A DNA stretch of 5,123 nt from Candidatus Auribacterota bacterium (GTDB lineage: Bacteria > Auribacterota > JAFGBW01). Positions 2,707 through 3,339 of the stretch are shown piece after piece (positions within the stretch are counted from its first letter, which is position 1; each line of letters opens with the position of its first letter). The DNA is taken from assembly GCA_016932965.1 (NCBI GenBank), contig JAFGBW010000247.1, positions 1-5,123 of the forward strand, given 5' to 3'. Position numbers and translations under genes: made by a program. The notes beneath the pieces are model-generated. The model was given only the letters and a program-made list of their open reading frames with translations. It searched no databases and had not been told where the DNA came from.

Positions 2707-3104
2707 GGGGACGCACCGGTCTCGACTTGAGATAGGTCGCTTATGTGGCATGCAGAGGTTTCAGGAGGCCTCTTTAAACACCTGAGCACAATAAACGCAA
2801 AAGATATTTTTGCGGGCGCTCGTGAGAACGTTGTTCCTATGAACTTCGTACCCATGGTGCCACTTCCTTTTGCCGCTTAATTGACGGCAAACGTTTCATG
2901 CTGATTCGCCTGTGATCAGCAAGGAAACGTCATTTTACAGGCTGGTCTTTTATGCGCCTGGCATAAAAGACGAGATTTCAGGATAGGCCTTTAAAAATCC
3001 TGACGGCTGGAGTTTTAAAGGAAGAAAACCAAAAAACCTTCTAAGCATGTAGAGGCATGAGTGGAAGTATTTCAAGGACGCGGGTTCAATTCCCGCCGTC
3101 TCCA
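2707..3104 (+). ncRNA. ssrA: Transfer-messenger RNA (tmRNA, SsrA)
   Basis: tmRNA acts with SmpB to free ribosomes stalled on broken mRNA and adds a degradation tag. The acceptor stem pairs GGGGACG (2707-2713) with CGTCTCC (3097-3103), with one G-U pair, followed by A3104. The T arm is GCGGG/CCCGC (3080-3084, 3092-3096) with loop TTCAATT, and the 3' end closely resembles E. coli tmRNA. Pseudoknot 1 is clear: AGAGG 2754-2758 pairs with CCTCT 2769-2773, and TCAGG 2761-2765 with CCTGA 2781-2785. Eleven bases then lead to GCA at 2797, RNA position 91, close to E. coli (90). Further pairings fit pseudoknots 2-4: GCTGAT/ATCAGC with GCCTGT 2908-2913 to ACAGGC 2937-2942; GTCTTTTATGC 2945-2955 to 2961-2971; CCTTTAAAA 2988-2996 to TTTTAAAGG 3013-3021. 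The terminal CCA is not encoded (TTC follows A3104), so it must be added by the CCA enzyme. At about 398 bases it is slightly long, partly because of the long tag frame. Confidence 0.96.
2797..2880 (+). other. Proteolysis-tag reading frame inside tmRNA, 27 codons plus TAA
   Basis: The resume codon is assigned as GCA at 2797 because it lies eleven bases after pseudoknot 1, the same distance as in E. coli. The tag would begin AKDIFAGAREN, continue through VVPMNFVPM and end VPLPFAA, followed by TAA at 2878-2880. That TAA sits in the loop of a perfect seven-base hairpin (TTTGCCG 2869-2875, CGGCAAA 2885-2891), the usual place of the tag stop. The other two frames reach stops sooner and do not end in the alanines expected of a tag. 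Known tags are mostly 8-15 residues and often end LAA or VAA; 27 residues with PFAA is odd. A later resume point at GCG 2812 or GCT 2818 would give 22 or 20 residues, still long. Start is inferred; stop is well supported. Confidence 0.72.
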
Positions 3105-3208
3105 TTCCTTTCTCAGCTAATGTCTATTACAGATATTGTTCCTATCAAACTGAGCAGAACATCAAACGTTATCAAATGACCTCTGACCTTCTTTTATATT
3201 CATTTATC

Positions 3209-3246
3209 GCGATTTGATTTTTTTTGTTCAAAAAAAATCAAATCGC
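3209..3246. terminator. Perfect 18-base-arm inverted repeat, possible bidirectional transcript end
   Basis: Left arm 3209-3226 (GCGATTTGA, eight T, G) is the exact reverse complement of right arm 3229-3246, with only TT between, so a hairpin would close with a four-base loop GTTC. Position between convergent genes suggests a shared transcript end. Against a classic intrinsic terminator, the stem is AT-rich and no T tract follows it on either strand; the T run is inside the stem. It could instead be an RNA 3'-end stabiliser or a small repeat element. Confidence 0.45.
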
Positions 3247-3271
3247 AAAAATGCTTTCTTCAGAGGGGAAT

Positions 3272-3316
3272 TTGAAGGGAACCCATTCTTTGGTACAACA
3301 AATGGGGTCCCTTCAA
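3272..3316. terminator. Inverted repeat just downstream of nspC, possible transcript end
   Basis: Arms 3272-3287 (TTGAAGGGAACCCATT) and 3301-3316 (AATGGGGTCCCTTCAA) pair over 16 positions with a single A-G mismatch and a 13-base loop. It starts 23 bases past the nspC stop on the - strand, the usual place for a terminator hairpin, and is richer in GC than the 3209-3246 repeat. No T tract follows directly on the - strand, so it may work as a 3' stability hairpin rather than as a terminator. Confidence 0.45.
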
Positions 3317-3339
3317 GTAAATCCGAACTAAAAAGTTCA

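Follow-up and report, generated by a model that had tools for sequence, protein, structure and literature searches.

The canonical tmRNA (RF00023), whose E. coli representative encodes the tag AANDENYALAA, combines a tRNA-like domain with pseudoknot 1, an adenosine four bases before the resume codon (the -4 A), a helix 5 holding the tag stop and pseudoknots 2 to 4, around a frame of about ten codons. Extended ssrA tags are best known from the Mollicutes (Mesoplasma florum, Mycoplasma), in which ClpXP has been lost and the tag is reportedly read by Lon, a finding ascribed to Gur and Sauer in 2008 and to Ge and Karzai in 2009. Published tag lengths range from 8 to 35 amino acids (PMC8012679), and the mRNA-like region of the Odontella chloroplast RNA measures 126 nt (PMC1168896). 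In E. coli, U85 and A86 set the tag frame, with a defined A86/G90 spacing (PMC2481249), and an earlier proposal places a small helix, "helix m", at its resume codon (PMC1168896).

The window analyzed here, a stretch of 5,123 nucleotides from a Candidatus Auribacterota genome, encodes an RNA which shares all the canonical parts and departs from them by a frame of 27 codons instead of about ten, a proline-rich middle, an F-A-A end and an added stem-loop. Its tag resembles those of Mollicutes in length and in a hydrophobic middle with a V-P element, a likeness which is not established homology; unlike Mollicutes, the window genome encodes ClpX and ClpP, while Lon was not found in it. The Odontella region likewise illustrates that a tmRNA can accommodate a long frame; it is organellar, and the comparison made here is one of length. 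A cyanobacterial-type tag, ANNIVPFARKAAAVA (L253, from genome G090, probably a cyanobacterium), shares an N-[IV]-V-P-F motif near its start (NNIVPF); it differs in having 15 residues and one motif copy, and the likeness is one of motif, not of established descent.

The tmRNA gene and its surroundings

ARAGORN and Rfam agree independently on a complete one-piece tmRNA (2707-3104/3107, forward strand). The RF00023 match covers the full length of the model (1-374) with 184.3 bits (E 1.5e-74; gathering score, 47 bits), the permuted tmRNA model RF04321 gave no match above threshold, and this is the only convincing tmRNA of the 3.14-Mb genome (92.6% complete). The RNA has the -4 A, helix 5 and the full set of four pseudoknots (Table 1). 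In pseudoknot 1, AGAGG (2754-2758) pairs with CCTCT (2769-2773) and TCAGG (2761-2765) with CCTGA (2781-2785). The genome, which reads TCTCCA followed by TTC, does not encode the CCA of the 3' terminus, and SmpB is encoded elsewhere (PF01668, 172 bits, at G000:C116). Apart from its long tag, the window RNA is an ordinary bacterial tmRNA.

Table 1. Features of the tmRNA locus (window coordinates).
Feature	Position	Strand	Basis
One-piece tmRNA gene (ssrA)	2707..3104	+	ARAGORN; RF00023
Pseudoknot 1	2754..2785	+	Sequence, Rfam alignment, alignment with 13 relatives
UA at -5/-4, counterpart of E. coli U85 A86	2792..2793	+	14-sequence alignment
7-bp hairpin CGCAAAA-GATAT-TTTTGCG around the resume codon	2796..2814	+	Folding
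Tag reading frame, 27 sense codons and TAA: AKDIFAGARENVVPMNFVPMVPLPFAA	2797..2880	+	ARAGORN, Rfam, alignment
Predicted stem-loop from the extra tag codons	2815..2861	+	Minimum-energy fold
NVVP, tag codons 11-14 (N-[VIL]-[VI]-P motif)	2827..2838	+	Comparison of long tags
Helix 5, 7 bp, 2869-2875 with 2885-2891	2869..2891	+	Rfam, fold, sequence
Pseudoknots 2 to 4	2892..3045	+	Rfam alignment; local folds
tRNA-like domain, 3' half, T arm GGACGCGGGTTCAATTCCCGCC	3046..3104	+	ARAGORN, Rfam

The neighbors of the tmRNA are unrelated to ribosome rescue. A ComEC-type protein and a 220-aa frame (1978-2640), the latter directly 5' of the tmRNA and with no Pfam or NCBIfam match, precede it; nspC and a carboxynorspermidine synthase gene follow on the opposite strand. 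Matches to NspC are scattered over many phyla. Strong inverted repeats lie right after the tmRNA (3198-3256 and 3268-3318), for which Rfam gave weak structural matches only; one of them could act as a terminator or be left over from a small mobile element. Further upstream, 1501-1938 has a lipoprotein-like start (..LYACSDSS..) and a frame interrupted by stops, and is possibly a decayed gene.

The tag reading frame

The resume codon is placed at GCA 2797, 11 bases after the end of pseudoknot 1, both by ARAGORN and by an alignment of 14 5' halves (the window and 13 relatives). The adenosine at -4, A2793, is invariant in these 14 sequences and near-universal, and the A2793/G2797 spacing equals that of A86/G90 in E. 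coli. The initial annotation had identified a tmRNA with this resume codon from pseudoknot 1 and the 11-base spacing, an assignment with which ARAGORN, Rfam and the alignment concur; on structural alignment to related ssrA genes, the resume codon stays at GCA 2797 and does not move nearer to 2878. The stop, which had been located in the loop of a seven-base hairpin, is indeed found in the nine-base loop of helix 5, CTTAATTGA (TAA, 2878-2880), and helix 5 itself encodes the terminal F-A-A of the tag.

The frame also reads as first described, with 27 codons, four prolines and a repeated VPM (VPM twice, VPL once). No Val codon and no Pro codon is used twice in the three V-P pairs, and these differences are all synonymous, which points to selection on the peptide. 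Taken alone, an open frame of 27 codons is weak evidence, since the frame also remains open in 33% of base-shuffled copies of this stretch; the case for the long tag is carried by the RNA structure and by the relatives.

Tag length and ending across bacteria

A survey of tmRNAs from about 118 genomes across the bacterial domain yielded 113 tags, read by ARAGORN or by hand. In this sample, 101 tags have 12 residues or fewer, ten have 13-18, none has 19-25 and two are longer: AKSSVVKEVEIPTNVVPFKAFNIGMMPLAA (30 aa, G069) and a tag of about 33 aa in G099 (L250), read by hand because ARAGORN misplaces it. The 27-residue tag is therefore rare but not unprecedented: the early description of it as unusually long holds against the survey, where two of 113 tags are that long, and does not extend beyond the published 8-35 aa range, within which it falls. 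The claim that its PFAA end is unusual beside LAA or VAA did not stand, as FAA endings are ordinary (3/113), though PFAA was seen in no other tag.

Several singular RNAs were also noticed. The G099 tag has an apparent resume codon AAC (Asn) instead of Ala. Two full-scoring survey tmRNAs, in G110 (L294:61-414, 173 bits) and G145 (L318:61-414, 150 bits), apparently encode two codons and then a stop (GCA GCT TAA and GCC GCG TAA, respectively) if the canonical resume position is assumed; another resume frame is possible. In G081 (L254:61-450), the six-codon tag ANTLVA is followed by a C-rich inserted hairpin replacing the usual helix 5 region, and in G030 (L036) and G017 (L045) an extra hairpin of about 30 bases sits within pseudoknot 1, 5' of a normal short tag.

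Long tags in the phylum and selection on the peptide

Among 44 species of the phylum, 31 tags were readable, and six of these, distributed over five families including that of the window, are 26-35 aa long. Besides the window tag, they are ADKGKIIPFENIVPAIKAPSINLGVLANAA (G006, 30 aa), ADTNKVIPFNGVGATNLVPFSPVQGLALAM (G020, 30 aa), ANQAKVVAFEKMNTVQFAPRMLALAA (G005, 26 aa), AKTNLISLDAYRADVNVANNVIPFSGAAMALAPAM (G021, 35 aa) and AKNNIISLDAYRVDVPTNVIPFASVSSMALAAAM (G014, 34 aa). For G005, the ARAGORN start VHANQ.. was dropped, the alignment setting the resume codon two codons later. Relative to the survey, long tags are enriched in the phylum (Fisher p 0.001 by genomes, which are not independent, and 0.0003 by families). 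Several phylum tmRNAs, including those of G007 and G012, were not found with RF00023 or with a purpose-built 5' model, probably owing to assembly gaps. The closest sampled relatives offer little comparison, the family of the window genome being one species and the only other readable tag of the order, in G001, being short (ANDNSYAMAA).

Evidence of coding constraint comes from a comparison of G021 with G014, members of different genera in one family that both keep the tag. Their codon-position differences number 6/5/16; ten codons differ synonymously and ten alter the residue. An excess at third positions is what translation of a sequence leaves behind, and on this sequence comparison the long tags of this one family are translated and selected as peptide. 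For the window tag itself, the varied codons of its three V-P repeats and a recurrent motif point the same way. This motif, N-[VIL]-[VI]-P, occurs in six of eight long tags, the window tag included (ENVVPM), and recurs across families of the phylum and in one other phylum. It was defined after inspection, and by residue shuffling has p of about 0.01 per tag; for the window tag, tested with the motif taken from the other long tags, p is 0.013.

The suggestion that the long tag might be specific to a lineage has thus gained ground, long tags with conserved coding being found in related families; the same tags argue against an insertion artifact or misassembly, in a sample without a very close relative. 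ClpX and ClpX+ClpP trees did not resolve the deep branches of the phylum, and the long tags may stem either from a single ancestral gain followed by losses or from repeated gains. The window tmRNA is real and looks functional, and its tag belongs to a class of extended tags that recurs.

RNA folding of the extended frame

The extra tag codons are predicted to form a stem-loop (2815..2861) which persists in the full-length minimum-energy fold and is stabler than dinucleotide shuffles (z -4.2) and than synonymous versions (p 0.004). Stability exceeds that of dinucleotide shuffles in all eight long frames (z -1.3 to -5.1), and recoding the same peptide with synonymous codons likewise gives less stable folds (Fisher p 6e-7); in the latter test, 84 control clpX windows gave a mean z of -0.35 vs -2.17 for the long frames. 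G021 and G014 share a common hairpin with three compensated pairs, and between families the hairpins vary in shape and place. Given the recurrence, the common motif and this unusually good RNA folding, the extension seems to be a product of selection and not of accident.

The 7-bp hairpin around the resume codon is the counterpart of the predicted helix m. It was considered as a special feature and rejected, being mildly above codon-shuffled sequences and found domain-wide; by this fold, it might slow resumption.

Proteases and alternative explanations

In the window genome, clpP and clpX (621 bits) are adjacent, in a cluster tig-clpP-clpX-purA whose flanking genes we take to be tig and purA from their translated products. 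The zinc finger and the GYVG and RKH loops of ClpX are intact, as are the Ser/His motifs of ClpP, and the presence of these genes makes ClpXP the presumed main protease for the tag. The adaptor SspB (PF04386) had no match in any searched genome of the phylum. As the initial annotation proposed, the tag may be read by a protease or adaptor other than the usual one.

A lengthening of the tag for Lon in place of ClpXP, as in Mycoplasma, would fit the similar length of the 27-residue M. florum-derived tag AANKNEENTNEVPTFMLNAGQANRRRV (PMC10873288) and the presence of Lon in two long-tag relatives, G006 and G020. It is nevertheless very unlikely. Lon (PF05362) had no match in the window genome, whose 92.6% completeness means that a Lon gene may have been missed, nor in G001 and G002; it was not found in the sister family, in either of the two f5 genomes or in any of three f7 genomes. 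Across the phylum it is patchy, found in 23 of 44 genomes with whole families (f1, f2, f5, f7, f9, f11, f16) lacking a match. With Lon in G006 and G020 and not found in the window genome, tag length does not track Lon. Mollicutes, moreover, show the reverse situation, Lon being kept and ClpXP lost (PMC8138137), whereas ClpX and ClpP are present here. That the frame is open by chance, the true tag being shorter or the gene decayed or misassembled, is the least credible of the explanations: a third of base shuffles stay open and the assembly is a draft of 300 contigs, but the covariance score is full-length, the -4 A is present, helix 5 is intact around the in-frame stop, and five other long tags are found in four further families.

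The folding results raise the alternative that the extension serves the RNA, its stem-loop stabilizing or spacing the mRNA-like loop and the peptide being a tolerated by-product. The excess stability of all eight frames against both kinds of control and the compensated pairs of G021/G014 are in its favor; we regard it as unlikely, because the third-position excess and the recurrent motif indicate that the peptide is selected too, and neither the shape nor the place of the hairpins is constant from one family to another. FtsH and ClpAP/ClpCP require a longer unstructured grip than ClpXP, and a long tail could have evolved for them. This explanation is consistent with neither Lon nor SspB having been found in the window genome and with the degradation of ssrA-tagged proteins by FtsH and ClpAP in E. 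coli (PMC3985003); faced with a ClpX whose pore loops are intact, it appears rather improbable.

Proposed function and implications

We consider it fairly probable that the window encodes a functional tmRNA whose frame has been extended from 8-12 to 27 codons, whose tagged products are degraded by ClpXP and whose extra segment provides a second contact. A stalled ribosome would take alanyl-tmRNA with SmpB, resume translation at GCA 2797, read the 27 codons through the extra stem-loop and helix 5, and stop at TAA 2878, leaving a tail of 28 residues (the alanine and 27 encoded ones). The hydrophobic C-terminus ..PLPFAA would be engaged by ClpXP, while the added middle part of the tag, which carries N-V-V-P, could offer the unfoldase or a putative adaptor a second contact and the unfoldase a longer unstructured grip. 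Being kept in a hairpin, the extended frame would leave the longer mRNA-like loop compact.

A broader proposal is tentative and, in our view, somewhat doubtful: extended tags with N-[VIL]-[VI]-P-F/M may constitute a distinct degron type in several deep lineages which have kept ClpXP, read by a putative adaptor or a second site of ClpX and encoded in a dedicated stem-loop under double selection, on the peptide and on the RNA fold.

Extended tags where ClpXP is kept, with Lon not found in this genome, imply that tag length has another cause than a switch to Lon. The common motif and the folded frame provide two separable hypotheses on tag evolution and, if confirmed, the extended tag would be a new natural degron.
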